Origin: Curtobacterium oceanosedimentum
GTDB taxonomy: Bacteria; Actinomycetota; Actinomycetes; Actinomycetales; Microbacteriaceae
Assembly (NCBI RefSeq): GCF_020297365.1
Contig: NZ_JAIXIG010000011.1
Location: 1 to 64,000 of the forward strand
Direction: 5' to 3'
Length of the DNA stretch: 64,000 bases
Position 1 is the first letter of the stretch. Each line of letters begins with the position of its first letter. Positions 2,501 to 26,053 of the stretch are shown one piece after another. Under the pieces are notes generated by a model, which saw only the letters and a program-made list of their open reading frames with translations, ran no database searches and had not been told where the DNA came from. Made by a program: the position numbers and the translations under genes.

Positions 2501-2646
2501 TGGGGTCCTCCTCAGGACTCGGAAGCGTCACCCCCGGCCGGCCCTGGATGGGCTCGGAACCGTTGGTGCGCGGTGTGTGTCTGTACTTTACTTGGTGGCG
2601 AGGGGCCCGTCGCCGGGCGCCCCCGCCTGTGGAGAAGCGCTGAGCG

Positions 2647-4761
2647 CTACTCCCCCGCGTTCTTCGCGATGATCTCCTCGGCGACCTTGGCCGGGACCTG
2701 GCTGTAGGTCTCGAAGGTCATCGAGTAGACCGCACGACCAGAGGTCTTCGACCGCAGGTCGCCGACGTAGCCGAACATCTCGGACAGCGGCACGCTCGCG
2801 CGGACCACCTTGACGCCCGAGGCGTCCTCCATCGAGGCGATCTGGCCACGACGGGAGTTCAGGTCACCGATGACGTCGCCCATGTACTCCTCCGGAGTAC
2901 GGACCTCGACGGCCATGATCGGCTCGAGGATCGCCGGACCGGCCTTGCGGGCCGCTTCCTTGTAGGCGATCGAACCGGCGATCTTGAACGCCATCTCGGA
3001 CGAGTCGACGTCGTGCGCCGCGCCGTCCTTGAGGATGGCCTTCACGCCGACGGTCGGGTAGCCCGCGAGGATGCCGACCTGCATGGCGTCCTGGATACCG
3101 GCGTCGACCGACGGGATGTACTCACGCGGCACGCGACCACCGGTGACGGCGTTCTCGAACTCGTAGACCTTCTCGGCCGTGACTTCCATCGGCTCGAGGG
3201 CGATCTGCACCTTCGCGAACTGGCCGGAACCACCGGTCTGCTTCTTGTGCGTGTAGTCGTAGCGCTCGACGACCTTGGTGAGCGTCTCGCGGTAGGCCAC
3301 CTGGGGCTTGCCGACGCTCGCCTCGACCTTGAACTCACGCTTCATGCGGTCGACGAGGATGTCGAGGTGGAGCTCGCCCATGCCCTTGATCGTCGTCTGA
3401 CCGGTCTCGGCGTTGAGCTCGACGCGGAACGTCGGGTCCTCTTCGGCGAGCTTCTGGATGGCCGTGGAGAGCTTCTCCTGGTCGGCCTTCGTGTTCGGCT
3501 CGATGGCGACCTCGATGACCGGCTCCGGGAACGTCATCGACTCGAGGACGACCTGGTTCTGCGGGTCGCAGAGGGTGTCACCGGTGGTGGTGTCCTTGAG
3601 GCCGATGACCGCGTAGATGTGGCCGGCGGTCACGTTGTCGACCGGGTTCTCCTTGTTGGAGTGCATCTGGAAGATCTTCCCGATGCGCTCCTTCTTGCCC
3701 TTGGTCGAGTTGATGACCTGGGCACCGGACTCGATCGAGCCGGAGTAGACGCGGACGTACGTGAGGCGACCGAAGAAGGGGTGCACCGCGACCTTGAACG
3801 CCAGGGCCGAGAACGGCTCCGACGAGTCGGGCTTGCGGATGATCTCCTTCTCCTCGTCCTTGACGTCGTGGCCGATCATCGGCGGCACGTCGAGCGGGGA
3901 CGGGAGGTAGTCGATGACGGCGTCGAGCATCGGCTGGACACCGCGGTTCTTGAAGGCCGAGCCGCACAGGACGGGGTAGACCTCGGACGCGATCGTGAGC
4001 TTGCGGATCGCGTTCTTGATCTCGTCCTTGGTGAGCTCCTCGCCACCGAAGTACTTCTCGAGCAGGGCGTCGTCGGTCTCCGCGACGCGCTCGATCAGCT
4101 TGGCGCGGTACTCGTCCGCACGGTCCTTGAGGTCCGCGGGGATCTCCTGGACCTCGTACTGGGCGCCCATGGTGACGTCACCCTTGGCATCGCCCGGCCA
4201 GACCTTGGCGTGCATCTCGATGAGGTCGACGATCCCGACGAAGTCGTTCTCGGCGCCGATCGGGAGCTGGAGCACGAGGGGCTCCGCGCCGAGGCGGTTG
4301 ATGATGGTGTCGACGGTGAAGTAGAAGTCGGCGCCCAGCTTGTCCATCTTGTTGACGAAGCAGATGCGCGGGACGTCGTACTTGTCCGCCTGACGCCACA
4401 CGGTCTCGGACTGGGGCTCGACGCCCTCCTTGCCGTCGAAGACGGCGACCGCACCGTCGAGGACGCGGAGCGAACGCTCCACCTCGACCGTGAAGTCCAC
4501 GTGACCAGGGGTGTCGATGATGTTGATCTGGTTGTTGTCCCAGAAGCAGGTCGTCGCGGCCGACGTGATCGTGATGCCGCGCTCCTGCTCCTGCGCCATC
4601 CAGTCCATCGTGGCAGCGCCGTCGTGGACCTCACCGATCTTGTGCGTGATGCCCGTGTAGAACAGGATGCGCTCGGTCGTCGTCGTCTTGCCGGCATCGA
4701 TGTGCGCCATGATGCCGATGTTGCGGACCTTGTTCAGGTCGGTGAGCACGTCCTGTGCCAC
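2647..4761 (-). CDS. fusA: Elongation factor G
   Basis: A 704-residue translocation GTPase. The G domain begins with [14 protein letters not shown] near residue 20, with [13 protein letters not shown] and NKMDKLGAD following. Domains II-V continue to the C-terminus, including the GMGELHLDI block, typical of EF-G. The start is GTG with GGAGG six bases upstream. It lies between rpsG (87 bases upstream) and tuf in the classical str operon order. Nothing suggests a second, mitochondrial-like or ribosome-protection paralogue; the length and motifs fit the housekeeping protein. Confidence 0.99.
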
Positions 4762-4848
4762 AGGGTTCCTCCGGAAGAGTTGTAGGAGAGGTTGGCGGCC
4801 GGGCGGGCGCCGGGGTTCTTGACCACCGGCGCCCGCACGGTGCCGGGA

Positions 4849-5319
4849 CTACCAGCGGTAGTGGGCGAAGGCCTTGTTCGACTCGGCCATCTTGTGCGTG
4901 TCCTCGCGGCGCTTGACCGCGGCGCCGAGACCGTTCGACGCGTCGAGGATCTCGTTCATGAGACGCTCGGTCATCGTCTTCTCGCGACGGGCCTTGGCGT
5001 ACGAGGTGAGCCAACGCAGCGCGAGGGTGTTCGCGCGGTGCGGCTTGACCTCGACCGGCACCTGGTAGGTCGAGCCACCGACGCGGCGGCTGCGGACCTC
5101 GAGGGTCGGACGGACGTTGTCGAGCGCCTTCTTCAGCGTCACGACGGCGTCCTGCTGGTTCTTGGCGGAGACGCCTTCGAGTGCACCGTAGACGATGCGC
5201 TCGGCGAGGCCCTTCTTGCCGTCGAGCAGGATCTTGTTGACGAGCTGGCTGACGATCGGCGCACCGTAGACCGGGTCGGCGACGACGGGACGCTTGGGAG
5301 CGGGACCCTTACGAGGCAT
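4849..5319 (-). CDS. rpsG: 30S ribosomal protein S7
   Basis: A 156-residue S7, the primary 16S rRNA-binding protein that nucleates the 30S head. The sequence begins [12 protein letters not shown] and shows the family block [16 protein letters not shown], ending in the usual KAFAHYRW. It starts at ATG five bases after the rpsL stop codon, so translation is probably coupled. In many bacteria S7 represses this operon post-transcriptionally; no specific S7 site could be identified here by eye. Confidence 0.99.
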
Positions 5320-5324
5320 CTAAC

Positions 5325-5693
5325 TCAACCCTTCTTCGCGCCGTAGCGGCTGCGAGCCTGCTTACGGTTCTTGACTGCCTGGGTGTCCAGGGCGCCACGG
5401 ATGATCTTGTAACGGACACCCGGGAGGTCCTTCACACGACCGCCACGGACGAGCACCATCGAGTGCTCCTGGAGGTTGTGGCCCTCACCGGGGATGTAGG
5501 CCGTGACCTCGGTGCCGTTCGAGAGCTTGACACGAGCGACCTTGCGCAGTGCCGAGTTCGGCTTCTTCGGGGTGGTGGTGTAGACGCGGGTGCACACGCC
5601 ACGCTGCTGGGGGTTCGCCTTCAGGGCGGGCGCCTTGGTCTTGGTGACCTTCGGCGTACGACCCTTGCGAACCAGCTGCTGGATGGTAGGCAA
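5325..5693 (-). CDS. rpsL: 30S ribosomal protein S12
   Basis: A 122-residue S12, part of the decoding centre. It shows the conserved [18 protein letters not shown] and [16 protein letters not shown] segments; the lysines corresponding to the classical streptomycin-resistance positions are unmutated, consistent with a drug-sensitive form. The start codon is TTG, read as [11 protein letters not shown], with GGAG five bases before it; no ATG or GTG fits. It is the first gene of the str operon, with a leader of roughly 165 bases from the promoter at 5865-5893. Confidence 0.99.
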
Positions 5694-5864
5694 CTGTTCT
5701 CCTGGTTCTTCGCTCGTGCTCTCTGGCCGGCGCGTTCCGCCGGCTTCCTCGTCCCACGCTGATCACCGCCGGACGGCGGACGATCGAGTGGGGGACGGAG
5801 TGGTCCGACTGGGCGTTCCGCCCGCCGGACTTTTCGGGCGCGCCCGAGGGCGCACACCCGGTAG

Positions 5865-7740: not shown

Positions 7741-8436
7741 TCAGTCCCCCTTCGGGGCGTCCGCTGCCGCTGTGTCGCCTGGTTCCGCGAAGACGTAGAC
7801 GGAGCCGGTCAGCGACCACGCCTGGTCGTCCATGGGGCTCGCCCCGCCGTCCGAGCTCGTCGAGGCGATGCCCGTCACGAGGAACAACCGCTGCCCGGAC
7901 TGCACCGCCTTCGTGAAGGCGAGCGCTTGGTCGTAGGACCCCTTCACCGCGGCCGTGACGGGGATCACGACGAAGTTGGCCCCGGTGACGGCGGGGTCGG
8001 TCAGCGGGGCCGGAGCGGACGGCGTCGGCTCCGCAGTCGGCGTCGCGGTCGTCGAAGGGGACGGCTCCGACGCCGGCGCTGCCGCGACGGGGTCGTAGGC
8101 CTTCGCGTCACCGATCGTGATCGCCGTCACGGTGACACCGCTGGCGCCCGCCGCGTTGTTCAGCTGCGTCAGGAGCGCCGCCGTCGACGGGGTGGACGGG
8201 ACCGAGACACGGAGGACGTCGAGCTCCGCCTTCGTCGCACCGAGCTCCTCGCTGGCCTTCTCGAGCCGCGCGAGTTCCGCACGGTTGCGGGCGTTCGTCG
8301 CGTCGATGTCCGTCTGCTGGGTCGAGTGGTCGGCGGCCTGTGCGAGCTGCGGTTGCACGCCGAGGAACCAGGCCCCGGCCAGGACGGCGCCGATCGCGAC
8401 GAGGGCGACGACGAGTGAGAGACGGTTGCGGTTCAC
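7741..8436 (-). CDS. pilO: PilO-like type IV pilus inner-membrane protein
   Basis: A 231-residue bitopic protein: a short cytoplasmic N-terminus (MNRNRLS), one helix at about residues 8-27, then a coiled-coil-prone stretch (residues 35-75) and an extracytoplasmic alpha/beta domain. The layout is that of PilO, which pairs with PilN to link the PilM-bound platform to the pilus. A Pro/Ser/Thr/Ala-rich linker (about residues 120-150) interrupts the globular part and is unusual for PilO. GTG start; the TGA of pilN overlaps it (GTGA), so the two are translationally coupled. It is the last gene of the pilus cluster. The assignment rests on position and topology more than on sequence identity. Confidence 0.8.
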   Translation of the reverse strand: MNRNRLSLVVALVAIGAVLAGAWFLGVQPQLAQAADHSTQQTDIDATNARNRAELARLEKASEELGATKAELDVLRVSVPSTPSTAALLTQLNNAAGASGVTVTAITIGDAKAYDPVAAAPASEPSPSTTATPTAEPTPSAPAPLTDPAVTGANFVVIPVTAAVKGSYDQALAFTKAVQSGQRLFLVTGIASTSSDGGASPMDDQAWSLTGSVYVFAEPGDTAAADAPKGD

Positions 8437-9161
8437 TTCGACTGCTCCTCGGTGTACCTGCCGTCGAAGGCCCCTGCTCCGAGGTGGACCTGGACGGTCG
8501 CGGAGTACCCGCCGGAGTCCTCCTGGAGGGCGACGGCCGTGATGCTCGAATCGGCGTACCCGTCGAGCTGCGACAACCGGGCGGTCCAGTCGGGCACGGA
8601 CGGGATCGTCGGGCTGGAGACGGTCAGCTGCATCGTCGCGACACGGGCCTTCTCGAGCGGCACGGCCGACTGGGCGAAGGGGGTGGTGACGTCCGCGGAG
8701 TCGATGGTCATCGACGTGATGGCGACCCCCGACGGCAGGAGGGCCTTCAGCTGCGACAGGGTGCCGTTCCAGTCGATCTCCGTCGACCCACCGACGGCGC
8801 GTGCCGCCTCGAGGAGCTGGCTGTCCTGCTCGGCCTGGCGGACCTCCGAGAAGCGCTGTTGCTGTTGGAGCAGCGAGGTCGTCTCGGCCTGTGCGGCGGT
8901 CAGCGACGACGCGGTGTCCAGCTGGTGCACCGCCGCTGCCCCGACGGCGAGCGCCGCGACGGCGGCGACGACGATCACGCCGAGCCAGGCGCGCCGGGCG
9001 ACGCCCCGTTCACGCCGGTCGGCGTGCACCTCCGGCGGGAGGAGGTCGACGCGCGGCTCACGCCCTGCGATCGACACCTGCGCGCGCTTGGAGGCCTTCC
9101 GCTCGCGCATCCCACCTGCGTCGTCCTCGGCGGTGGCCGGACGGGTCTCGGCGACGGTCAT
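8433..9161 (-). CDS. pilN: PilN-like type IV pilus assembly protein
   Basis: A 242-residue bitopic protein. A cytoplasmic segment of about 55 residues precedes one membrane helix (about residues 60-80), then a heptad-like Gln/Glu-rich stretch and a small alpha/beta domain. In PilN the cytoplasmic tail carries a short motif that docks into PilM; here the candidate is the segment EPRVDLLPPEVHADRR (about residues 34-50), matching the known NLLP-type motif. ATG start overlapping the pilM stop (ATGA), and GTGA overlap into pilO, so the three are stoichiometrically coupled. Confidence 0.85.
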   Translation of the reverse strand: MTVAETRPATAEDDAGGMRERKASKRAQVSIAGREPRVDLLPPEVHADRRERGVARRAWLGVIVVAAVAALAVGAAAVHQLDTASSLTAAQAETTSLLQQQQRFSEVRQAEQDSQLLEAARAVGGSTEIDWNGTLSQLKALLPSGVAITSMTIDSADVTTPFAQSAVPLEKARVATMQLTVSSPTIPSVPDWTARLSQLDGYADSSITAVALQEDSGGYSATVQVHLGAGAFDGRYTEEQSK

Positions 9162-10210
9162 GCTGCTCTGCTCCCTACTGCCAGGCCGAACGCCACGGTG
9201 ATGGCGTCGAGGTGGTCGACCACGTCGTCCGCGGGGATCGACCGGGCGAGACCGACGCCGTCGAACGCGTCGCCCACGGTGATCGGGAGCCGGATCTGCT
9301 CCGCGAGCGCCTGCTGCAGTCCCGCGAGACGCGCGCCGCCGCCGGCGACGACCACCCGGGTCACCGGCTCGGTGGGACGGGTGTTCACGAAGTAGTTGAT
9401 CGTGTTCCGGAGGCTCGAGATGAGCTCGTTGACCGACATCGCGATGACGGAGACGGCGCGAGCGTCGTCCGCCGTCCGCTCCCGGCCGCCCAACCCGAGG
9501 TGGCGCTTCACCGCTTCGGCCTGGTCGAACGTGACGTCGAGGGTGCCGACCAGCGCCCGCGAGATGTCGTTGCCGCCGATCGGGATGATCCGGACGAACT
9601 GCGGCACACCGTCGGTCGCGATGACCACGCTGGTGGTGTCGGCACCGAACTGCACGACGGCGGCGGTGCCACGGGCACCCTGCCTGCTGAGCAGCACGCG
9701 GGTGAGGGCGAAGGGGATCATGTCGACGCCCACCGGGTTGAGCCCTGCGAGCTGCACCGCCTTGACGTTCGCGAGCACGGCGTCCTTGATCGCCGCGATC
9801 AGGAGCCCGTGCACGACCGGTCCGTTCTCGCTCTCACCCTCGGACACCGGGTAGAAGTCGAGGATCGCGTCACCGACGGGCACCGGGAGCATCTCCTGCA
9901 CCTGGAACGGCAGGCTCTCGCGGATCTGCGGCATCGGCGCGAGCGGCACCGTGAGGTCGCGCGAGAGCACGCGCTGGTTCCCCATCCCGAGCACGACGTC
10001 CTTCGAGCGGAACCGACCCGTCGCCCACAGCTTGCGCAGGGCCGCGGCGACGGTGTTCGGCTCCAGGACCTCACCACGGCTCACGGCGTCCGGCGGGGTC
10101 GGCACCTCGGCGAAGCGCACCACCGTCGGACGTGCTCGGTCGGCGTCCGCGACCTCGACCGCTCGGATCGATGATCCGGCGATGTCGACACCCACGATGC
10201 TCTTGCCCAT
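9158..10210 (-). CDS. pilM: PilM actin-like type IV pilus assembly ATPase
   Basis: A 350-residue actin/FtsA-fold protein. The phosphate-1 loop is visible at the N-terminus (GVDIAGSSIRAVEV), with a second nucleotide-binding motif VVAGGGARLAGL near residue 285 and QFGADTTSVV in between. PilM is cytosolic and binds the PilN tail to join the motor ring to the membrane platform. It starts at ATG 36 bases after pilD with only a weak ribosome binding site, and overlaps pilN by four bases. The length is normal for PilM. Confidence 0.93.
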   Translation of the reverse strand: MGKSIVGVDIAGSSIRAVEVADADRARPTVVRFAEVPTPPDAVSRGEVLEPNTVAAALRKLWATGRFRSKDVVLGMGNQRVLSRDLTVPLAPMPQIRESLPFQVQEMLPVPVGDAILDFYPVSEGESENGPVVHGLLIAAIKDAVLANVKAVQLAGLNPVGVDMIPFALTRVLLSRQGARGTAAVVQFGADTTSVVIATDGVPQFVRIIPIGGNDISRALVGTLDVTFDQAEAVKRHLGLGGRERTADDARAVSVIAMSVNELISSLRNTINYFVNTRPTEPVTRVVVAGGGARLAGLQQALAEQIRLPITVGDAFDGVGLARSIPADDVVDHLDAITVAFGLAVGSRAA

Positions 10211-10246
10211 GATGCTGCTTTCGTTGACTGTGGAGGATGAGCGCGG

Positions 10247-11089
10247 TCAGGCGACGCCGAGGACGCGGAGGTACCCGGTCCAGAGTCCGTCGCCGAACGC
10301 GATGCCGAGCCATGCCCCCACCAGCATCGACGGACCGAACGGCAGGCCACCGCGCCAACGCGCGCGACCGCTGACGAGGAGTGCGAGGGCGACGGTACCG
10401 CCGACCACGAACGCACCGAAAGCACCCACTGCGAGGGGTCCCCATCCGAGGTACGCCAGGACGAGGCCGAGGACGACGGCCAACTTGACGTCCCCCAGCC
10501 CCATGCCTCCGGGCACCGCGAGGGCGAGGGCGAGGTAGGCGGTCCCCAGCACCGCTGCCCCGATCGCGGCCCGACCGAGCGCTCCCCAGTCGCCGTCGAG
10601 CGCGCTGACCAGCGCGAGCAGTACCGCCAGGACGACCGCCGACGGGTAGACGACGGCGTTTGGCAACGTGTGCGTGTCCGTGTCGATCAGCGTGAGCGCC
10701 ACGGACATCCCCATCGCCCAGAGCAAGGCGACGAGCAGCACCACCTGCGCGGCCGTGCTCTGCGACGCACGGTCCGACGTCGCCGTCACCGCCAGGACGG
10801 CGGCGACCCCGAACAGGACCGCCGTGGCGAGTTCGACCAGGGGATAGCGCGCGGAGATGGGCGCCGAGCAGTCGCGGCACCGCCCCCGCAGCAGGAGCCA
10901 GGACAGCACGGGGACGTTGTCGCGGCGACGGATCGCGTGGCCACAGGCCGGGCAGGCGCTCGGTGGCGAGACCACGGACGCACCGGCCGGCACCCGGTGC
11001 ACGACGACGTTGAGGAACGAGCCGACGAGCAGACCGAGCAGGGCGGACGCGCCGGTGAGCAGAGGGAGCAGGGGCTGGAGCGTCGTCAT
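10247..11089 (-). CDS. pilD: Prepilin peptidase / N-methyltransferase
   Basis: A 280-residue polytopic aspartyl protease that would cleave the leaders of PilA and the minor pilins at the Gly boundary. The N-terminal cytoplasmic domain has the [11 protein letters not shown] motif and two CxxC pairs (CPACGH and CRDCSA, about residues 45-80) that bind zinc, as in bifunctional PilD. The two catalytic Asp motifs are [11 protein letters not shown] (about residue 140) and [10 protein letters not shown] (about residue 205, GxGD type). Start at the ATG overlapping the stop of the upstream pilX-like gene (ATGA); longer upstream frames lack family sequence. Confidence 0.95.
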
Positions 11090-12981
11090 CGGCACGCACC
11101 GCCCGTCGTCTTCGCGCAGGAACCGTCCGCGGCGTAGGCCGCCTGCACCTCGACCTGGGTGGTGACCCCGTACGAGGTCGACACCGGCTGCAGGAACTTC
11201 GGCGGCGCGGTGGTCAGGAGGCGCTGGTCGTAGACGTAGTTCTTCGAGAACCCGGTGTTGCCGGTCGTCGCGACCGCTCCGCGCCAGTTCTGCGCGATCG
11301 AGCCGACCACCTTGAGGGTGCCGAGCTTCGGGCCGATGTCGTAGTTCTGGTTCCAGAAGGTGCCCGCGTTGCTGGCGATCGCCGCGGCCACCGTGATGGA
11401 AGCACCGCCGGACCGGTTCAACAGCCCGACACCCGCAGTGTTGCACCGCGAGGTGTCCGTCACGTACCCGACCCCCCACTGGTAGGTGGTCGGGTAGGAG
11501 GTGCAGCGCGCGGGATTGTAGATCTCGACGGCGTTCTGTCCCACGAGGCCGAGCACGTCGTTCGTCGGGCTCCCGTACGTGATGTCACCGGTGACCCAGA
11601 CCGTGCCGGAGGACGCGATCGTCATCGCGCCGCTGAACGCCCCGCTGACGAACACGTCGCCGGCACTGCACCCGTACGTGTCGGAGGCCGAGCCGGTCTG
11701 GTACGAGTTGTCGGACCTTCCGCCGTTGATCCACTCGCCAGCGGCGGGGAACCCCTGGCCGTTGTCGAACGGCTGGTTGCGTGTCGTGGTCACGGATCCG
11801 TTCGCGCGCACGGTGACCGCGGTGGTGCAGTAGGTGTTCGAGTACCTCGACGGGTAGCTCGCACCCCACGCGTTGACGTTGTTCGACGCGGACGGGACGT
11901 CCTGCACGTACATGAGGTTCGACGGGAGCGTCGCGATCGTCGCCCCGGCGGCGCTCTGCAGGTCCGTGACCCCACCGCACAGTGCAGCGGCCTTGGCGGC
12001 GTCGTCGGCGGCGGAGACCGCTCCGGAAGCGCTGTCGACCTTGATCTGCGTGGCCTTCGACCATGGCGACCACACGGTCATCTTGCCGTTCCCGAGGAAC
12101 TTCACGCGGGTCGGACCGGTGTACATGCACCCGGGCCGCGGGACCGTCGTCGGCAGGTCCGTGCGCGTCTCCTGCGACATGTTCGTGTTCAGTGCGGGGA
12201 GCCCGAGGTACGGGACCGCCGACGCCGGACCGCCGTTGAACGATCCGGCACAGCCCCCGCTCGCGGGGAGGACCGTCGTGTCGTGCTGCTCGACCGAGCC
12301 GTTGAAGACCGTGGAGCACGCGGAGGTGAAGACGTCGTTCGTCCGGATCGGGCCGTCCAGGGTGTCGGACCCGGCGAACTGCACCGCGGCGCACTTGCCG
12401 CTGACGGACTGCCACTGGTAGGCCGTCGTGCAGTCGCTCCCGGTGAGCGCCGGGTTCGACGATTCGTAGTTCGTGAAGTACAGGTAGTTGATGAAGCCGT
12501 CGCCCTTGAGGTTCGCGACGAGGGACCGGACGCTCGAGCCCGACTTCCCGGTGACCCGGACCCGGAGCACGCCCTTGCCGGAGTAGTCCGAGTTGTCGAC
12601 CTCGTACCGGAACCACTGGTCGCTGGACCCCACGACCGGCGCCCAGTCCCGCCCGGAGGTGGTGAACGCGATGTTCTTGTCCGCGTTCACGAACGTCGAC
12701 CCGCTCGACTTGCTGAACTGCGCGTCCGCGTTGCCGTAGAGGGCGTACCCGTTGTCGTTCGAGAGCTTCGACTGGTAGTCGGCGAGTCCTGCGTACGCCG
12801 CAGCCATAGCGTTCTGGAAGTTGCGGTCCGTCGCCGCCTTGACGGCACCCGAGGTCGAGACGGCGATCATCGTGGCGACGAGCAACATCATGACCGTACC
12901 GAAGATGAGCACGTTGCCGAGGATCATCCCGCGCTCGTCCCGGTGCGCCCGGTCCAGCACTCGGCTCAAGCGACCGATCAT
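11086..12981 (-). CDS. Large PilX-like pilus-associated surface protein
   Basis: A 631-residue protein with a PilX-type N-terminus: a basic leader, then [19 protein letters not shown] as a hydrophobic helix (residues 18-45). It lacks the Glu5 of classical pilins, as PilX-family proteins may. The remaining ~580 residues are Ser/Thr/Gly/Asn-rich with at least ten cysteines, suggesting an extracellular disulfide-bonded, beta-rich domain. Position between the pilW-like gene and pilD, both with 4-base overlaps, makes it a pilus component, possibly a tip or adhesive subunit; that role is inference. It is far larger than ordinary PilX (about 160-200 residues). Confidence 0.75.
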
Positions 12982-13685
12982 GGGGTTCCTGCTCCGATGC
13001 TCGTGCCGTAGACGACGTTGAAGAGGTACAGCGTGTTCTGGACGTGGGTGTTGCCGCTCGCCCCCGCGGCGGTCGATCCGAGCTCGAGGTTGACTCGGAC
13101 GGCACGGATGTTGCCGAGCTGCGCGCTCGCGAGGGTGCCGTCCGGCTGGGTCGGCAGGGCTTTCCCGTCGGCGCCGAGGTACGTCAGCAGTGGGGCGCCG
13201 TCACTCGTCGGTGACGCGATCGGTCCGCCGATCACCAGGCTCCGCGCGGGCGTCTGCGACGTGGCGGGGAACGAGTAGAAGCCCTTCGTCGCCGACCCGT
13301 CCCACTGGTCCACCACGAGACGTTTCGCGGCGTTGAGCGAGTAGCGGACCTGGACGGGCTTGTCGGTGCTGTTGCCGTCCAGGTTGATGTAGGCGTAGAA
13401 GACCACCTGCGTGGGTCCGGCCTGCGTGACCGCAGCCGCGTAGGTGCCGTCGGCCTTCGGCAGCAGGCTCGCCGCGTGCACGTAGCGCGTCAGGGAGTTC
13501 ATCGCGATCGACGCCGTCCGCGCGTTCTGGTCGGACGCGGTGTTGGTGGTGCCCGCACGCAGCGTCGAGGTGAAGAACCCGCCCACCGCGACGAGGATGA
13601 TCATCGACACGCTGACGGCGACCAGCAGTTCGGACAGTGAGACGCCCGCCTGGTCCCGGTGGAGGCGGAGGACCAGCCGCCTCAC
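12978..13685 (-). CDS. PilW-like minor pilin
   Basis: A 235-residue prepilin-type protein. The leader MRRLVLRLHRDQAG is followed by VSLSELLVAVSVSMIILV, so cleavage after Gly14 would leave Glu at mature position 5. The rest is a soluble domain with a few aromatic beta-like strands. I set the start at the GTG at 13685 that overlaps the stop of the upstream gene (GTGA); the much longer open frame upstream lies antiparallel-free over another gene and has no pilin character. Overlaps the next gene by ATGA. Probably part of the priming minor-pilin complex. Confidence 0.85.
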   Translation of the reverse strand: MRRLVLRLHRDQAGVSLSELLVAVSVSMIILVAVGGFFTSTLRAGTTNTASDQNARTASIAMNSLTRYVHAASLLPKADGTYAAAVTQAGPTQVVFYAYINLDGNSTDKPVQVRYSLNAAKRLVVDQWDGSATKGFYSFPATSQTPARSLVIGGPIASPTSDGAPLLTYLGADGKALPTQPDGTLASAQLGNIRAVRVNLELGSTAAGASGNTHVQNTLYLFNVVYGTSIGAGTP

Positions 13686-15133
13686 GGTGTCTGACCCCGC
13701 GGGTCGAGGGTCAGCGTGTTGTCGTAGTTGATGACGACGAGGGTCGTCTTCTGGTTGACCATGCCGTTGGTGACCGGCTTGACGTTCGACGCCTTCGCCG
13801 CGATCTCGTTCTTGCTCGTCGACCCGAACGTGGTGCCGGAGGAGATCGTCCAGGTGCCGAACGGCAGGGCGATGGTGGCGGTGTCCGTGGTCGAGACCGG
13901 GAACCGCATCGTCATCCCCGCAGCACAACCGGGGTCGCCCGCCGCCGGGTTGACGGACGAAACGGCCGTGACGTACCGCCCCTTCACACCCGTGACGGTG
14001 GCGACGCCCATCTGGACGTCGGCGGTCGACGGCTGTCCGGGCGCGGTCGCGACGGTCGGGGGACTCACCCCGATGGCGTTCTCGGCGTCGGGTGTCGACC
14101 AGGACGACGGGTTCGGGCTGAGGCAGCTCGTCGATGCGCCCGGGGTGTTGGAGTAGGGCCCGGCGTACACCGTGTAGCCCGAGGTGAACGGGAAGACCGG
14201 CACCGACGGCCTCGACGCCGACGTGACGTTGAGCGAGGTGCTCGCCAGGTCCCATGGCCGGATCGTGTCCAGTCCCCCGGCGGTGCTCGACAGGGTCGTC
14301 GGCATGTTCGTGGGCAGGGTCGCCTGGTGCCCGGTCGCGTACTGCAGGGTCAGTCGGCTCGCCTGGTCGTAGACGAAGGGGACGGGTGCGCTCGCGCCGG
14401 CGGTCACCGAGATCGGCGACTGCACGGACGGTTGGCCCTGGTTGGTGTCGATGCCGCCACCAGCGTTCGCGGTGACGGTGTAGTCGCCCTGCGTCACGTT
14501 GACGGCGTACGAGCAGCCCTGGTCGTCGGTCGGGAGGACCGGGGTCGTCAGGGGGCTCCCGCCGCCGCCGCTGACCGGCGCGATGCTGATGCCGACACCC
14601 GCGGCGGGGGCGCCGGACGCGGTGGTGACCGAGATGATCACCGTGCCGTACCCGGGGTCGGTCACGGCGTCGCTCGGTGCGATGGCGGACGACACCGAGG
14701 TCGTGCTCGACCCACCACGCGGGTTGGGCCACGTGACCGTCTCGACGACGCTCTTGTACGCCAGCTTGCCGTTCGACGTTCCGCAGGCACCGGTTGCGCC
14801 GTCACTCTGGACCCAGCGCACGGCTCGGTCGACCTGGTAGGTGACACCGCCGATGGTCTTCTTGTTGTCCTCGCCGGCCCTGCTGAGCACCTTGAAGATG
14901 CCACCGGTGGACGCGGCAGCCGTCTGGCGGAGGGTGTCGATGTCCTGCGAGGCCAGGGCGACGGCGGTCTCGCGTCCGCGGTTCGTCTGGGTGAGCTGCA
15001 GGCTGTTCGCGATGCCGTAGGCGATGCCGATGGACATCACGGCGAACACCATCATGGCGACCATGACCTCGATGACCGAGAAGCCGGCCTCGGCATCGTG
15101 CCGGGACAGCCGGTCGCGCAGTCGTTGGATCAT
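13682..15133 (-). CDS. PilV-like minor pilin with added beta-sandwich domains
   Basis: A 483-residue prepilin-type protein, much larger than usual minor pilins. Leader of 17 residues ending in AEAG, then FSVIEVMVAMMVFAVM with Glu at mature position 5. After the pilin-like region (to about residue 150) come Thr/Gly/Pro-rich segments with the pattern TDDQGCSYAVNVTQGDYTVT, characteristic of CnaB or carboxypeptidase-regulatory-like beta-sandwich domains, and a second similar block towards the C-terminus. ATG 15133 chosen because AGGAGG lies five bases upstream; a GTG six bases earlier would overlap that site. First gene of the minor pilin-pilD-pilMNO run. Confidence 0.82.
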   Translation of the reverse strand: MIQRLRDRLSRHDAEAGFSVIEVMVAMMVFAVMSIGIAYGIANSLQLTQTNRGRETAVALASQDIDTLRQTAAASTGGIFKVLSRAGEDNKKTIGGVTYQVDRAVRWVQSDGATGACGTSNGKLAYKSVVETVTWPNPRGGSSTTSVSSAIAPSDAVTDPGYGTVIISVTTASGAPAAGVGISIAPVSGGGGSPLTTPVLPTDDQGCSYAVNVTQGDYTVTANAGGGIDTNQGQPSVQSPISVTAGASAPVPFVYDQASRLTLQYATGHQATLPTNMPTTLSSTAGGLDTIRPWDLASTSLNVTSASRPSVPVFPFTSGYTVYAGPYSNTPGASTSCLSPNPSSWSTPDAENAIGVSPPTVATAPGQPSTADVQMGVATVTGVKGRYVTAVSSVNPAAGDPGCAAGMTMRFPVSTTDTATIALPFGTWTISSGTTFGSTSKNEIAAKASNVKPVTNGMVNQKTTLVVINYDNTLTLDPRGQTP

Positions 15134-15160
15134 GGTCACCTCCTCGTCGTCCGATGTGGC

Positions 15161-15195
15161 GAAGGGCGGCCCGTCCGATCGACGGGCCGCCCTTC
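15161..15195 (-). terminator. Perfect hairpin after pilA
   Basis: Arms 15161-15175 and 15181-15195 pair over 15 bases without mismatch around a 5-base loop, 10 bases past the pilA stop and 28 bases before the pilV-like start. It probably makes pilA mRNA more abundant than that of the genes behind it. Confidence 0.8.
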
Positions 15196-15204
15196 ACTTG
15201 TTGC

Positions 15205-15663
15205 CTAGGCCGCGCCGCAGGCCTTGTCGACCACGGAGGTCGACTCGGTGATGCGGAAGGTCTTACCGCTGTCCGAGGTCTGCTGGATGCAGAACGTCGA
15301 TGCGCCGGTGGTCGGGTTCGTCCCGTACTTGAGGTCCTTGGTGTTCGCGCTGACCGTCAGCCCGTACTTGCCGAGTTCGGTGTTCGAAGCCTCGAGCTTC
15401 TGCCCTGTGCTGGAACCGTCCGGCAGGTTGCCCTTCTCGGTCTGGTACGCGATGACGGCGGTCTTCGCGTTCGCGAGGTCGCTCTTGACTGCCGAGTCCT
15501 TCGCGTTGTTCTGCACGTTCAGGTACACCGGGATGGCGATCGCGGCGAGGATGCCGATGATGATGACGACGACCAGGAGCTCGATGAGCGTGAAGCCCTT
15601 CTCCTTGTCCTCGAGGAGACCCTTGCGGCGAGCGTCGAGCTTGCCCATGAGAGCGAAGTACAT
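15205..15663 (-). CDS. pilA: Major type IV pilin
   Basis: A 152-residue prepilin. The leader of 23 residues ends in EDKEKG; mature sequence begins FTLIELLVVVIIIGILAAIA, with Glu5 and the conserved hydrophobic alpha1 helix. The globular part ends with two cysteines (STFCIQQT and DKACGAA) placed to form the C-terminal disulfide loop typical of type IV pilins. I chose ATG 15663 (MYFALMG) with GGAA six bases upstream; ATG 15675 would add four residues to the leader and cannot be excluded. Flanked by a hairpin on each side, so it is probably an own transcription unit with high expression. Confidence 0.93.
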   Translation of the reverse strand: MYFALMGKLDARRKGLLEDKEKGFTLIELLVVVIIIGILAAIAIPVYLNVQNNAKDSAVKSDLANAKTAVIAYQTEKGNLPDGSSTGQKLEASNTELGKYGLTVSANTKDLKYGTNPTTGASTFCIQQTSDSGKTFRITESTSVVDKACGAA

Positions 15664-15789
15664 GGTGGTTTCCATTCTTCTGGGAATGCGTTTGGGTTGT
15701 GCAGGGAAGTGCTCCGCCGCCGCTGACAAGAGTATTCAGGGGCGTTTGCGGGCGGAATCCCGAGAACGGGGGGTCCGGACGCACCGAAA

Positions 15790-15809
15790 TGCCCCCAGTA
15801 GCGGGGGCA
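15790..15809 (-). terminator. Terminator after pilC
   Basis: TGCCCCC and GGGGGCA arms (7 bp) around a 6-base loop, followed on the minus strand by TTT. It lies 47 bases beyond the pilC stop and ends the pilB-pilT-pilC unit; a separate pilA promoter should lie between here and 15663, where an AT-richer TGAATACTCT is the best -10 candidate. Confidence 0.75.
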
Positions 15810-15855
15810 ATTCAGCGCTGGCCGCCCCCGCACGAGGGCCAGGAACGAGCTGCCG

Positions 15856-17079
15856 CTACTGGACGAGCGACGTGATCTGGAAGATCGGCAGGTACAGCGC
15901 GACGATCATGCCACCCACCACCACGCCCAGGAACGCGATGAGCAACGGCTCGATCAGCGCGGTGAGGGATTCCGTCGTGGATTCGACCTCGGCGTCGTAG
16001 AACACGGCGATCTTCTCGAGCATCACCTCGAGGGACCCGGCGTCTTCACCGACCGCGACCATCTGCGAAACCATTGCCGGGAACACTGTTTCTTTTTCCA
16101 TCGGCGCGGCGATCGATTCGCCTTTCCGAACGCTTTCGGAAACGCGTTCGAGTGCTTTCTGCACGACGAAGTTGTTCGACACCTGACCGACGATCGACAA
16201 TGCCTGGAGAATGGGGACGCCGGCCCCGATCATGTTCGAGAAGTTGCGGGCGAACCGAGCGATGACGATCTTGCGGGTCAGGGCGCCGAACACCGGCAGA
16301 CGGAGCAGGATCGGGTCGCGGAAGTTCCGGAAACGGTCGGTGTTCTTGTTCGCGCGGTACCAGAGCCACGCGGCGATCAGCACGACCGCCAGCACCGGCC
16401 CGAGCCACCGCATCGCGTCGGACAGGGTCACGAGGATCTGCGTCGGCACGGGGAGCTGCCCGCCGAGCGACGAGAACATGTCCTGGAAGATCGGGACGAT
16501 GAAGATGAGCATGATGACCACAGCGGCGAGCGACATGCACAGCACGACGACGGGGTAGGTCATCGCCGACTTGATCGTCGACCGGAGCTTGTGCTCCTTC
16601 TCGAAGTTCGTCGCGATCGAGTCCATGGCCTGGTCGAGGAACCCGCCGGTCTCCCCCGCACGGATCATGTTGATCATGATCGGCGGGAAGTCGACCGGGT
16701 ACTTCGCCACGGCGTCGGAGAACGAGACGCCGCGCTCGACGTCGTCGCGGACCTTGCCGAGGATGTCCTTGAGCTTCTTGTTCTCGGTCTGGTCGGACAG
16801 GATCGTGAGTGCACGCAGGAGCGAGAGCCCCGACGTCAGCATGGTCGACGCCTGGCGCGACATGATCGCGAGGTCCTTGAGGCCGACGCCCTTCTCGAAG
16901 CCCGGGATCTTGATCTCGGTCTGCAGGCCGGTGCCGGCCTTCGCCTCGGTGATGGCGATCGGCGAGACGCCCATCCCCCGCAGGCGCTGGACGACGGCGC
17001 CTTCGGACGCGGCGTCGAGGCGCCCCTTGACGAGCTTGCCCGCGCCGTCGCGACCGCGGTAGTCGAACGCGAGGGACAT
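15856..17079 (-). CDS. pilC: PilC inner-membrane platform protein
   Basis: A 407-residue GspF/PilC family protein, the membrane platform on which the PilB/PilT motors act. Two repeated T2SSF domains are visible, each with the RAGExxG-type signature: MIRAGETGGFLDQA (about residue 145) and AVGEDAGSLEVM (about residue 345), with membrane helices at roughly 175-205, 225-245 and 380-400. Start ATG shares one base with the pilT stop (TGATG). The last third (about 16060-16230) is strikingly less GC-rich than its surroundings. Confidence 0.95.
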   Translation of the reverse strand: MSLAFDYRGRDGAGKLVKGRLDAASEGAVVQRLRGMGVSPIAITEAKAGTGLQTEIKIPGFEKGVGLKDLAIMSRQASTMLTSGLSLLRALTILSDQTENKKLKDILGKVRDDVERGVSFSDAVAKYPVDFPPIMINMIRAGETGGFLDQAMDSIATNFEKEHKLRSTIKSAMTYPVVVLCMSLAAVVIMLIFIVPIFQDMFSSLGGQLPVPTQILVTLSDAMRWLGPVLAVVLIAAWLWYRANKNTDRFRNFRDPILLRLPVFGALTRKIVIARFARNFSNMIGAGVPILQALSIVGQVSNNFVVQKALERVSESVRKGESIAAPMEKETVFPAMVSQMVAVGEDAGSLEVMLEKIAVFYDAEVESTTESLTALIEPLLIAFLGVVVGGMIVALYLPIFQITSLVQ

Positions 17080-18650
17080 CAGTAGCCTCCGGAGAACTTG
17101 TCGCCGAAGTCGATGCCGCTGGCGGCGATCGCGGCGGCCGAGGAGTCGGACGGGGACTCGACGCGCTGCACCAGCCGGTCGAAGCCCTCCTCGTCGTGCA
17201 CCTTCTCCATCGCGGCCTTCCGCGAGACGGTGCCGACGTTGACCAGTTCGGCGAGGTCCTGGTCCATGGTGTGCATGCCGAGGTCACGGCCGGCCTGCAT
17301 GGCCGAGGTGATCTGGTACGTCTTGCCCTCGCGGATGAGGTTGCCGATGGCGGGGGTGATCGTCATGATCTCGGTCGCGACGACCCGACCGACGCCGTTC
17401 GCCTTCGGCACGAGGGTCTGGCACACGACGCCCTGCAGGGTCGCCGCGAGCTGCGTGCGGATCTGGCCCTGCTGGTGCGGGGGGAACACGTCGATGACGC
17501 GGTCGATCGTGCCGGGAGCGCTCTGCGTGTGCAGGGTGGCGAAGACCAGGTGGCCGGTCTCGGCGGCGGTGAGGGCGACGGAGATGGTCTCGAGGTCGCG
17601 GAGCTCACCGATGAGGATGACGTCGGGGTCCTGGCGGAGCACGTGCTTCAGCGCCGAGGCGAACGACTGCGTGTCGGCGCCGACCTCGCGCTGGTTGATG
17701 ATCGACCGCTTGTGCTCGTGCATGAACTCGATCGGGTCCTCGACCGTGACGATGTGGTCGGACCGCGTCTCGTTCACCATGTCGATCAGGGCGGCGAGGG
17801 TGGTCGACTTGCCGGAGCCGGTCGGGCCGGTGACGAGGACCAGGCCGCGGGGCAGCCCGGCGAACGCGCCGACGTGCTCGGGGATGCCGAGCTGCTTGAG
17901 CGTCTTGATCTTCGTGGGGATGATGCGGAACGCCGCACCCCAGTTGCCGCGCTGCTGGTAGTAGTTCACGCGGAAGCGGTACTCCGGGGACAGCGAGTAC
18001 GCGAAGTCGAGCTCCTGGTCGTGGTCGAACTGGCCGGCCTGCTCGACGGACAGCAGCGTCTTGAGCGCCGCGATCACCTTGCCGCGCGACCACGCGCCTC
18101 CCGGCACGGCGGGGCGGAGCGAGCCGTCGACGCGGACGGTCGGCGGGGCATCGGCGGTGACGTGCAGGTCGGAGGCGCCCTGGTAGACGACCTGCGCGAG
18201 CGCCGTGATGAGATCGGGGTCGGCGACCTCGCGCGCGTGCCGGGCGAAGTCGATGTCGCCGGGGGCGGTCGAGCCCGGGGCGGTCGAGCCGGGCGCTGCG
18301 GCCGTCGTCATGGGCGCGCTGACCGAGGTCCCGGCGACGGGTGCGGTCGGCAGCTGCTGCGTCGGCGGTTCCGCGTAGCCGTAGGTGGCGGTCGAGGACG
18401 GCACGGCGGCGGGCGGGGTCACCGGCGCCGTCGAGGACGGTGCCGTGGGGACGGCAGCCGAGGCGAGGGGCGCCGCCCACGCCGACGCGTCGTCACCGAG
18501 GTCGTACACCTGCTCCTGCGGAGCCGCGGCGGCCGCCGCGGCGAGCCGGGCCGCACGGCGCGATCCCACCTCGGCGCCGGGCGTGCCCGGGTGCCACCCG
18601 GCGACGGGCTCGTCGCCGGGCATGGTGATGTCGTACACGGAGTCGGTCAT
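17079..18650 (-). CDS. pilT: PilT retraction ATPase with long N-terminal extension
   Basis: A 523-residue hexameric motor ATPase. The ATPase core shows Walker A GPTGSGKST (about residue 280), the Asp box VTVEDPIEF, Walker B DVILIGELRD, the AETGHL motif and the His box ATLHTQSA. Compared with ordinary PilT (about 350 residues) it carries about 110 extra N-terminal residues that are Ala/Pro/Thr/Ser-rich with a small GSTAPGSTAPG repeat, presumably disordered. The start is ATG 18650, right after the pilB stop (20 bases), where family-like order begins. PilT drives retraction; its presence implies a dynamic, twitching-capable pilus. Confidence 0.93.
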   Translation of the reverse strand: MTDSVYDITMPGDEPVAGWHPGTPGAEVGSRRAARLAAAAAAAPQEQVYDLGDDASAWAAPLASAAVPTAPSSTAPVTPPAAVPSSTATYGYAEPPTQQLPTAPVAGTSVSAPMTTAAAPGSTAPGSTAPGDIDFARHAREVADPDLITALAQVVYQGASDLHVTADAPPTVRVDGSLRPAVPGGAWSRGKVIAALKTLLSVEQAGQFDHDQELDFAYSLSPEYRFRVNYYQQRGNWGAAFRIIPTKIKTLKQLGIPEHVGAFAGLPRGLVLVTGPTGSGKSTTLAALIDMVNETRSDHIVTVEDPIEFMHEHKRSIINQREVGADTQSFASALKHVLRQDPDVILIGELRDLETISVALTAAETGHLVFATLHTQSAPGTIDRVIDVFPPHQQGQIRTQLAATLQGVVCQTLVPKANGVGRVVATEIMTITPAIGNLIREGKTYQITSAMQAGRDLGMHTMDQDLAELVNVGTVSRKAAMEKVHDEEGFDRLVQRVESPSDSSAAAIAASGIDFGDKFSGGY

Positions 18651-18670
18651 GTGCGGGTCCTGTCCTCCGG

Positions 18671-20338
18671 TCACGCGACGACGCGCAGGATCTCGTCGAC
18701 GCTCGTCATACCGAGCTTGACCTTCTCGAAGCCGTCCTGCCGGAGCGTGAGCATGCCCTGCTCCTGCGCCACCCGGCTGATCTCCGCGCTCGAGGCCCGG
18801 CCGACGGCGAGGCGCTCGATCTCCTCGGTGACGGTCATCACCTCGTGCAGGGCGATGCGACCGCGGTAGCCCGTGTTCGAGCAGACCGCGCAACCGACGG
18901 GGGCGAAGAACGCCGGCAGTTCGTCGCCGGCGCGCAGGAAGCCGAGCGCCTGGAGCTGCTCGACCTCGTACACGGCGGGCGCCTTGCACCGGTCGCACAG
19001 CCGACGCGCGAGTCGCTGGGCCACGACGGAGTCGAGCGCCGACCCGACGAGGAACGGCTCGATGTCCATCTCGGTCAGGCGCGTGACGGCGGACGGGGCG
19101 TCGTTGGTGTGCAGCGTCGAGAGCACGAGGTGCCCGGTCAGCGAGGCCTCGATCGCGATCTGCGCGGTCTCGTGGTCACGGATCTCGCCGAGCAGGACCA
19201 CGTCGGGGTCGGATCGCAGGATGGACCGCAGCGCCGAGGCGAAGGTCAGCCCGGCCTTCGGGTTCACCTGCACCTGGTTGATGCCGGCCATGCGGTACTC
19301 GACCGGGTCCTCGACGGTGATGACGTTGATCTCGGGCTTCGCGACCGCGTTCAGCGTGGTGTACAGCGTCGTGGACTTCCCGGAACCGGTGGGCCCGGTG
19401 ACCAGGATCATGCCGTACGGCTTCGAGTAGGACCGCTGGTACGCCTGGAAGTTCCGCTCGAGCAGGTTGAGGTCCTTGAGGGTCAACGACGTGTTCGTGT
19501 TGTCGAGGATCCGCATGACGACCTTCTCGCCCCACACCGTCGGCAGGGTCGCGACACGGAGGTCGATCTGCCGACCGCCGTGGCGGACCGACATGCGGCC
19601 GTCCTGCGGCTTGCGCCGCTCGGCGATGTCGATGTCGCTCATGATCTTCAGACGGCTGATGACGCCGTTCTGGATGTTCTTCGGGGCCGGCGCCATCTCG
19701 TGCAGCACACCGTCGATGCGGTAGCGGATCCGCACCTCGTGCTCGCCGGGCTCGATGTGGATGTCGGACGCGTGGTCCTGGATCGCCTGCGACACGAGCA
19801 GGTTCACGAACCGGACGATCGGGACGTCGTCGAGGGCTCCGTCGGCGATGTCGACCTGCGCGGTGGAGGTGGCGGACGCTTCTTCCTCGAGGGACGAGGT
19901 GAGGTCGTTCAGCTCGTCGTCGGCCCGGAGGTAGCGGTCGAGGGCGGCCACGAGGTCGCGCTCCTCGACCTGCAGCGGCTTGATCGTGCGACCGGAGGCC
20001 GTGCGGGCGTCGTCGATCGCGAGCACGTTCGTCGGGTTCACCATCGCGAGGATGAGCAGGTCGCCCTCGAAGCCGACGCCGAGCACACCGTGCCGCCGGC
20101 AGAGCGCCGCCGGCAGGATCGACACCGCGGTGCCGTCGACGGGGTAGTCGCTCAGCGGGACCGTGCGGGAGTTGTTCGACGCGGCGCGGGCGGTGATGAA
20201 CTGGGCCTCGCTCACGACGCCCTGGTCGACCAGGCCGCGGATGGCGCGCTCGTCGAGGTCCTCGTCGCCCGTCATCGAGTCGAGGTGCTCGATCGGCAGG
20301 GCGCCGTTCAGGATGAGGATCTCGGACAGGGTCGCCAT
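18671..20338 (-). CDS. pilB: PilB extension ATPase
   Basis: A 555-residue GspE/PilB motor. The N-terminal part (residues 1-150) matches MshEN-type c-di-GMP-binding domains in layout. The core has Walker A GPTGSGKST (about residue 325), VTVEDPVEY, Walker B DVVLLGEIRD, TGHL, and the C-terminal zinc tetracysteine motif CDRC...CAVC (about residues 460-500) that distinguishes extension from retraction motors. ATG 20338 follows AAGGAGG ten bases upstream; the open frame continues upstream without family sequence. First gene of the pilus cluster. Confidence 0.95.
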   Translation of the reverse strand: MATLSEILILNGALPIEHLDSMTGDEDLDERAIRGLVDQGVVSEAQFITARAASNNSRTVPLSDYPVDGTAVSILPAALCRRHGVLGVGFEGDLLILAMVNPTNVLAIDDARTASGRTIKPLQVEERDLVAALDRYLRADDELNDLTSSLEEEASATSTAQVDIADGALDDVPIVRFVNLLVSQAIQDHASDIHIEPGEHEVRIRYRIDGVLHEMAPAPKNIQNGVISRLKIMSDIDIAERRKPQDGRMSVRHGGRQIDLRVATLPTVWGEKVVMRILDNTNTSLTLKDLNLLERNFQAYQRSYSKPYGMILVTGPTGSGKSTTLYTTLNAVAKPEINVITVEDPVEYRMAGINQVQVNPKAGLTFASALRSILRSDPDVVLLGEIRDHETAQIAIEASLTGHLVLSTLHTNDAPSAVTRLTEMDIEPFLVGSALDSVVAQRLARRLCDRCKAPAVYEVEQLQALGFLRAGDELPAFFAPVGCAVCSNTGYRGRIALHEVMTVTEEIERLAVGRASSAEISRVAQEQGMLTLRQDGFEKVKLGMTSVDEILRVVA

Positions 20339-22127: not shown

Positions 22128-26009
<3,882 letters not shown>

Positions 26010-26053
26010 TGTTCTTCTCTCTTGCTGATTCAGGCTTCGATGTACGGGCGGGA

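Follow-up and report, generated by a model that had tools for sequence, protein, structure and literature searches.

The Curtobacterium oceanosedimentum DNA studied here, a stretch of 64,000 nucleotides that we call the window, carries eleven consecutive minus-strand genes for a type IV pilus (positions 7741-20338). It is very probably the locus of a retractile type IVa pilus (T4aP) whose filament-and-tip genes form a cassette that species exchange through homologous recombination, in the manner of a serotype locus. The sequences themselves show the gene set, motor motifs that are conserved, purifying selection, types uncoupled from species, breakpoints and recent transfer. The filament-and-tip half appears in numerous, very different versions, exchanged between species of the genus as a block. 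The motors stay with the chromosome. This division was unexpected.

The window is part of contig C2 of a 3.3-Mb genome (99.96% complete), and the closest named relatives of its PilT belong to Curtobacterium. The original prediction, made from the letters alone, described a compact and complete set in the order PilB, PilT, PilC, PilA, three prepilin/PilX-type proteins (PilV, PilW and PilX below), PilD, PilM, PilN and PilO. All eleven genes are confirmed in this order, and six of the ten gene junctions overlap by 1-4 bases. The features are the following.

18671-20338, minus strand: pilB, extension ATPase; 555 amino acids, MshEN and T2SSE domains
17079-18650, minus strand: pilT, retraction ATPase, by its motifs and nearest solved sequences (PilT); TIGR01420 match from residue 147 of 521 amino acids
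15856-17079, minus strand: pilC, platform protein; residues 1-180 do not track cassette type, residues 181-407 do
15205-15675, minus strand: pilA, major pilin; conserved N-terminal helix, hypervariable C-terminal half, at times exchanged alone
13682-15139, minus strand: pilV, modular minor pilin; pseudopilin-like part, CnaB/transthyretin-like domain (residues 162-261) and a further beta region
12978-13685, minus strand: pilW, minor pilin; Glu5 present
11086-12981, minus strand: pilX, ComZ-like pilin, likely tip subunit; 631 amino acids, without Glu5
10247-11089, minus strand: pilD, prepilin peptidase (A24); PF06750 and PF01478
9158-10210, minus strand: pilM; TIGR01175
8433-9161, minus strand: pilN, called by a weak family match, an LLP motif and its position between pilM and pilO
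7741-8436, minus strand: pilO; PF04350, also matches solved PilO
7741-16539, minus strand: proposed exchangeable cassette; pilC from about codon 180, then pilA, V, W, X, D, M, N and O
22128-29770, minus strand: upstream anchor, rpoC (22128-26009) and rpoB (26054-29770); open reading frames (ORFs) identified by reading
1313-5800, minus strand: downstream anchor, rpsL, rpsG, fusA (2647-4761) and tuf (1313-2500); ORFs identified by reading

A GNAT gene and a glyoxalase-like ORF separate the pil genes from one of these anchors; a DUF6121 gene and an ORF that belongs to no family separate them from the other.

Two halves of the pil locus

We compared the window with 60 further Curtobacterium loci (61 in total). 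Two were dropped before the identity matrices: L139, without a pilW match, and L187 (genome G010, 65% complete, with broken reading frames). This left 59 loci. L181 (G022, gyrB split in two) was dropped before the gyrB comparison, which left 58. The genomes of the genus outside the 60 were G011, G050 and G061 (pilT/pilB near a contig end), G065 (73% complete) and G015, which was handled apart. The gene order is kept in all 60 further loci, far beyond chance, and 59 of them show all eleven matches. The sole locus without a pilW match at the threshold, L139 of genome G024, may have lost this gene or carry a more distant one.

The mean pairwise amino acid identity over the 59 loci is high for PilB (.92), PilT (.86) and PilC (.85). 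The other subunits have lower values: A.58, V.43, W.41, X.52, D.66, M.68, N.49 and O.47. The parts that vary most are PilV/W/X and the PilA C-terminal half. The distance matrices of PilV, PilW and PilX correlate with r of.93-.97 among themselves and.53-.83 with C, A, D, M, N and O, versus.10-.15 with B and T. Against gyrB (58 loci), the Mantel r was.62 for PilB,.61 for PilT,.34 for PilC,.19 for PilA,.12 for PilM and.07-.08 for PilV/W/X. Within PilC, residues 1-180 correlate with V/W/X at r.09-.14, and residues 181-407 at.42-.55. It means that the change from the chromosome-linked part to the exchanged part falls inside PilC, near codon 180 genus-wide. From there to the end of pilO, with the gene order fixed, a block of about 9 kb exists as some nine types that are deeply diverged. 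Every cassette type is found together with the motors and the first part of PilC.

The types were then set against the species tree. Placing the nine types on the gyrB tree takes 35 changes, against a minimum of 8. Among pairs with gyrB above 95%, the type differs in 39 of 55, and among all pairs in 1420 of 1653. The type thus seems nearly, yet not wholly, random with respect to species. The mean identity of PilX between types is.47, and that of PilM is.65 between types and.80 within them. The type of the window was found in 14 of the 59 loci, the window included. Its near relatives L179 and L184 share it; L180 and L183 do not, with a break in pilC near 16.5 kb. L148 has the same type as the window, and the pairing of the two is rejected by pilB-T in the approximately unbiased test (p-AU 5e-82). 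In the same kind of test, the V-W-X data reject keeping three sister pairs together (p-AU 7.5e-4, 8.4e-6 and 4.6e-73). The types are largely decoupled from species and have breakpoints into conserved flanks, as in an exchangeable surface locus. The word discrete has to be qualified, given the overlap of identities described below. As a separate observation, about 1.2 kb upstream of pilB, in the rpoC-pilB gap, is also unlike between L179 and L183 (39-52% per 200 bases, as aligned).

Single pairs locate the edges of the block. In the sister pair L148/L149 (gyrB 99.2%), the PilB and PilT identities round to 1.00 with gaps ignored, and the PilT tails differ by an insertion. The same pair has identities of.37 for PilV,.32 for PilW and.43 for PilX. 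Its flanking DNA, on the outer side of pilB and past pilO, is 96-100% identical. Across the stretch that runs from pilC through pilO, identity is 44-96% per 200 bases, mostly 44-79%. The synonymous differences are.04 and.06 in pilB and pilT,.08 and.32 in pilC, and.39-.55 from pilA to pilO. The pair L177/L178 (gyrB 98.2%) repeats this pattern. L145 and L158 (gyrB 93.6%) show the converse, with synonymous differences of.29 and.35 in pilB and pilT,.26 in pilA and.03-.13 from pilV to pilO. Two species with PilT at 86% have nearly identical blocks. In the 26-row pilB-T tree these two are already joined, without support (18.9). The breakpoints in single pairs lie in pilC at nucleotides 172-615, and the edges are sharp inside pilC and after pilO.

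PilA is also exchanged by itself. In the pairs L163/L164, L129/L130 and L179/L184, it is the one protein that differs (.70-.76, with the others at.94-1.00). The synonymous divergence (dS) of pilA in these pairs is.29-.39, versus.01-.15 in the adjacent pilC and pilV. A value so far above that of the neighbors indicates that pilA was exchanged for a foreign copy and had not simply drifted where it stood.

The proposed mechanism has a conserved and an exchangeable part. PilB, pilT and the first ~180 codons of pilC would be inherited with the chromosome. The rest of pilC, pilA, V-W-X, D and M-N-O, about 9 kb in about nine deep types, would cross species. Foreign cassette DNA, which might enter by transformation, transduction or conjugation, would recombine through rpoBC-pilBT on one side and, on the other, through the conserved genes behind pilO toward rpsL-fusA-tuf. 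Selection for change may fall on what the filament and the tip touch: phages, surfaces, other cells or DNA. PilD, PilM-N-O and over half of PilC might travel along by linkage in the block, by a need to fit the pilins, or both.

The pilus machine and its tip

The locus was predicted to encode a complete PilT-bearing type IVa machine, and a profile search against the Pil families and intact motor motifs agree. PilT matches TIGR01420 with 459.8 bits (cut-off 319.1) and PilM matches TIGR01175 with 173.3 bits (cut-off 133). Likewise, PilO matches PF04350 (33.6 bits, cut-off 22), and both PilM and PilO match solved structures of their namesakes. PilD is above the cut-off for PF06750 and PF01478, and PilC matches T2SSF with 216.9 bits. 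N_methyl is just or well above the cut-off on PilW, PilV and PilA. The boxes that we take to be Walker A, Asp, Walker B and His are conserved in both motors over the 59 genus loci. So, separate PilB and PilT motors, PilM-N-O, prepilins with Glu5 and PilD are all found. These results support a complete type IVa pilus machine with a retraction ATPase, and neither a type II secretion system nor a Tad system. PilB would extend the pilus and PilT would retract it; the twitching, surface sensing or DNA uptake proposed in the prediction may be its roles.

Some assignments are less firm. The best model for PilB is TIGR02538 PilB, with 615.6 bits, under its curated cut-off of 675.65. PilN is the weakest gene call. 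No Pfam PilN model matched it alone, and 4 of 25 aligned members match (best E 3.3e-5). Its best solved match is a PilN (E 0.15), and an LLP motif, presumably the PilM-binding end, is invariant or nearly so near its N terminus. PilX had no family match in the profile search.

It is scarcely credible that a type II secretion or Tad system was mislabelled here. PilB and PilC score against GspE and GspF too, with PilB at 572.2 bits against the GspE model, under that model's own cut-off. However, PilT and PilB reach 50.5 and 46.8 bits as TadA (cut-off 373.15), and a separate TadA-like ATPase fragment (337.2 bits) lies on contig C23. PilM and PilO are present, and the PilT score is high. The secretin PF00263 has no match in the whole genome, with the same search positive in 6 of 14 control genomes. 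The predicted lack of PilQ agrees with this; PilP was not searched for. A monoderm competence pseudopilus (ComM/ComG) was ruled out by the presence of PilT, PilM and PilO and by scores below the cut-off for ComGA (265.2 bits, cut-off 300) and ComGB (150.5, cut-off 240).

A disordered N-terminal extension of PilT had also been described. The low-complexity extension is real. Its length ahead of the family match is about 146 residues, not about 110. It is rich in Pro, Ala, Ser and Thr, and its length varies within the genus. Short motifs are kept in residues 1-146, around MTDSVYD, GWHPG, RRAARLA and VYDL. This extension could be a docking tail.

The pilins point to the architecture of the tip. 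Glu5 is present in 59 of 59 PilA, PilV and PilW, and in 0 of 59 PilX. The tip subunit GspK likewise has no Glu5. The PilV model has a predicted local distance difference test score (pLDDT) of 81.6. Its pseudopilin-like part matches a chain of EpsI-EpsJ and a chain of the XcpGHIJK filament, both with Z 8.0, a level that is common according to the tool. The CnaB/transthyretin-like domain of PilV matches with Z of about 10-11. In Foldseek, PilX matches ComZ of Thermus with E 1.7e-5, and the next other match has 1.7. By VIA, the PilX-ComZ match has Z 15.1 over 314 residues. A second structural match of PilX is an ice-binding beta-solenoid (Z 11.5, 186 residues, root-mean-square deviation 3.4). Because of the Glu5 pattern and these model matches, PilV, PilW and PilX most likely make up a tip complex of the GspI/J/K kind, in which a large solenoid is exposed. 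Sequence profiles of PilX and PilV against solved structures gave nothing useful, and PilV, PilW and PilX against PHROGs gave nothing.

In Thermus thermophilus, ComZ binds DNA, is argued to sit at the pilus tip and resembles GspK; a likeness to an ice-binding beta-solenoid is also reported (PMC6561018, in the part available). ComZ has a large beta-solenoid in a pilin fold, is missed by pilin motif searches and is encoded beside other pilin genes (same source); by its model, PilX may be built in the same way, and it too stands beside other pilin genes. On the other hand, their identity is 9-13%, and Thermus pili cross an outer membrane. By its model, PilX is a likely, ComZ-like, tip subunit. 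The tip complex PilV-W-X may prime and cap the filament, and PilX may present its beta-solenoid at the tip. The ligand might be DNA, a surface or nothing fixed. One universal ligand would sit badly with the diversity of the PilX tip.

Explanations for the exchangeable half

In 12 same-type pairs, every gene has a dN/dS value (ratio of non-synonymous to synonymous substitutions) below 1. This value is higher in pilA (.18-.85) than in pilB (.00-.09). This difference and the long stems leading to the types would fit a filament half that evolves very fast in place, under relaxed or diversifying selection and without exchange. We consider this very unlikely. Between sister strains, the synonymous differences are.39-.55 in the block versus.04-.06 in pilB and pilT, the blocks of L145 and L158 are near-identical despite diverged pilB and pilT, and the edges inside pilC and after pilO are sharp.

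The origin of the types bears on a second explanation. We made quick trees with at most three rows per type (23 of the 59 Curtobacterium rows) and other loci only with all genes of a set. The D-M-N-O genes of the 23 rows form one clade (support 100). In the V-W-X tree, Frondihabitans joins types 1 and 2, and Frigoribacterium falls among the types, flagged as a long branch of unsure placement. The V/W/X identity to the window is about 29-46% for other types and overlaps that of other genera (27-43%). So, the V-W-X tip types may be older than the genus or may have crossed genera. Import of the cassette from another genus was considered as well; it is unsupported for D-M-N-O, and V-W-X is compatible with it. 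These tip results favor an old balanced polymorphism in each lineage, with occasional exchange, where many sister differences are the sorting of old alleles. We give this explanation a little less than an even chance. The single D-M-N-O clade of Curtobacterium speaks against it, as do near-identical cassettes between species with diverged flanks, which indicate recent movement. Balanced polymorphism and cassette exchange are not exclusive.

What selects for the change is a further question. The pilus might mainly take up DNA, with PilX as a ComZ-like DNA receptor, PilT retraction feeding ComEA-ComEC, and transformation moving the cassette. The match of PilX to ComZ points this way, as does its second match, the ice-binding beta-solenoid, a likeness reported for ComZ too (PMC6561018, in the part available). 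The genome also has a ComEC gene on contig C6, with a ComEA-like match (51.3 bits, cut-off 53.1) about 0.7 kb away on the same strand. Nevertheless, DNA is one ligand and gives no obvious reason for a receptor to diverge to a mean of.47 between types in one genus, and ComEC, found in 10 of 14 control genomes, is uninformative. We consider this function doubtful. A mainly phage- and surface-facing adhesin, whose filament and tip are exchanged under phage predation, is a tentative alternative that we rate slightly higher. It would explain the peak of variation in the PilA C-terminal half and PilV/W/X. One proposal for Pseudomonas is that the group III pilins evolved, or were acquired, as a means of escape from pilus phages (PMC11841053, in the part available). 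The divergence of PilM between types does not fit. PilM is cytoplasmic, and exposure cannot explain its difference.

Several results weigh against the exchange of discrete cassettes between species. How many types are counted varies with the cut: 11 at 0.30-0.40, 9 at 0.42, 6 at 0.45 and 5 at 0.50. The minima within types overlap the maxima between types (V.54/.57, W.52/.60, X.60/.69). Shuffled types need a mean of 38.4 changes and were as low as the data in 12 of 200 cases, so the type is not wholly random on the tree. The same type occurs in 16 of the 55 pairs with gyrB above 95%, versus 233 of all 1653 pairs. A residual signal is also present in the Mantel tests of V/W/X against gyrB (p.02-.03), and D, N and O keep r of.23-.29. 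The gyrB gene, located away from the pil locus, is the lone species marker. The three sister pairs that V-W-X rejects in the approximately unbiased test were chosen after seeing the data.

The unit of exchange varies as well. In L154/L169, V to O are close (.06-.12), but the second part of pilC (.45) and pilA (.42) differ. Type T7 groups with T4-T6 by D-M-N-O and with T8/T9 by V-W-X in the quick trees, so the block has not stayed in one piece. Six Frigoribacterium genomes include pairs with PilB at.99-1.00 and PilM at.94-.98; no pair is above.57 for V,.54 for W (five genomes) or.66 for X. The fast unit there is mainly A-V-W-X, with N and O to a lesser degree. Variation is also seen in seven Leifsonia and seven Salinibacterium genomes (inferred genus assignments), and a match to the PilX of the window is missing in three and two of them, respectively. 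No donor outside the genus was caught. For the tip, the mean pLDDT of the PilX model is 73.7, and its match to ComZ has a low template modelling score (.25-.30) and a high root-mean-square deviation (9.8 A).

Weighing these points, we still favor a T4aP locus with an exchanged filament-and-tip cassette. A bolder version of it seems unlikely to us. There, half of the machine would be a serotype-like cassette traded by species under arms-race selection on a ComZ-like tip and filament. The pilus might take up its own traded DNA, and V-W-X types older than the genus would be kept by balancing selection.

If cassette exchange is true, Curtobacterium type IV pili come in interchangeable types, as O-antigens do. 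The natural variants would be a ready experiment on which assembly parts must match the pilins. The data tie PilD, PilM, PilN, PilO and the later part of PilC to the pilins, but neither motor. The types would also give a typing scheme for phage and surface-binding tests in Curtobacterium. We found no experiment on a Curtobacterium type IV pilus in the open-licence PMC literature, as far as its texts were available.

Distribution and known relatives

A type IVa machine had been presented as unusual in actinobacteria, and this is refuted by the counts. PilT is above the cut-off in 64 of 66 Curtobacterium genomes (this one included), in 171 of 349 genomes of the family and in 84 of 246 genomes drawn from the class. 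The gene order was compared as well: among 80 named PilT loci, 55 have at least four pil matches, 47 of these follow the order of the window, and 15 have all eleven genes so ordered. Of the 38 Microbacteriaceae-like loci with more than 5 kb in view, 29 have rpoC upstream of pilB, compared with 0 of 22 other loci.

The literature, in the parts available, also argues against rarity. T4aP in Actinobacteria is already published (PMC6668835, PMC6916266), and pil operons with pilT are described across Gram-positive classes (PMC3244431). A Curtobacterium genome note lists 12 type IV pilus genes (PMC5054313). In Bifidobacterium, a 2026 paper on 13 species reports pilB, pilT, pilE/A, V, W, X, C, D, M, N and O with twitching-like motility in agar stabs (PMC13091076). 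The gene content is the same, in another actinobacterium with PilT. The Bifidobacterium locus differs in having pilB-pilT on the other strand and pilC after pilX, and the available part of that paper does not report type exchange across species.

Other monoderm pili are comparable. Those of Streptococcus sanguinis and Clostridium are driven by PilT and have PilM-N-O and no outer-membrane parts (PMC6916266), and PilB of S. sanguinis is an example of modular minor pilins (PMC8179133). They have other minor pilins, and an exchangeable half-locus is not reported in the available parts of these sources. Pseudomonas aeruginosa has pilin-accessory cassettes, with two minor-pilin sets that match pilin groups and a suggested horizontal acquisition (PMC11841053, in the part available). 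In comparison, the Curtobacterium block adds D, M, N, O and over half of pilC, with about nine types that cross species in a Gram-positive genus.

O-antigen and capsule loci of Enterobacteria and pneumococcus are polymorphic surface loci between conserved flanks, exchanged by homologous recombination. In Curtobacterium, the locus encodes a protein machine instead, and its gene order is the same across types. PilM-N-O of P. aeruginosa are reportedly located elsewhere in the genome.

The pil machine can be lost in nature. In G015 (99% complete), all that is left between rpoC and the DUF6121 gene, inside a contig, is a pilD that looks intact and a pilM truncated near residue 95 (L192, reverse strand, ~0.6-3.3 kb from the start). 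This strain would be a natural null and a ready negative control.

Some loci depart from the common layout. Cryobacterium sp. PH29-G1 has two pilT copies about 32 kb apart on one contig (L081 and L084). One is beside rpoC, with a weak pilB match only (42%, likely pilT) and no pilC match. The other has most of the pil set and no rpoC in view, which may reflect relocation or a second locus. L058, on a contig titled as a Mucilaginibacter metagenome-assembled genome, has a PilT 70% identical to that of the window and is most likely mis-binned. Finally, contig 2 (567 kb) of the Curtobacterium genome G018 has PilT-like ATPases at ~41-72 kb (L257/L258) with 255-256 bits, below the PilT cut-off. They stand beside GspE/PilB-like genes in two oppositely oriented pairs, together with a third PilT-like fragment, and are perhaps further pilus- or transfer-like systems.

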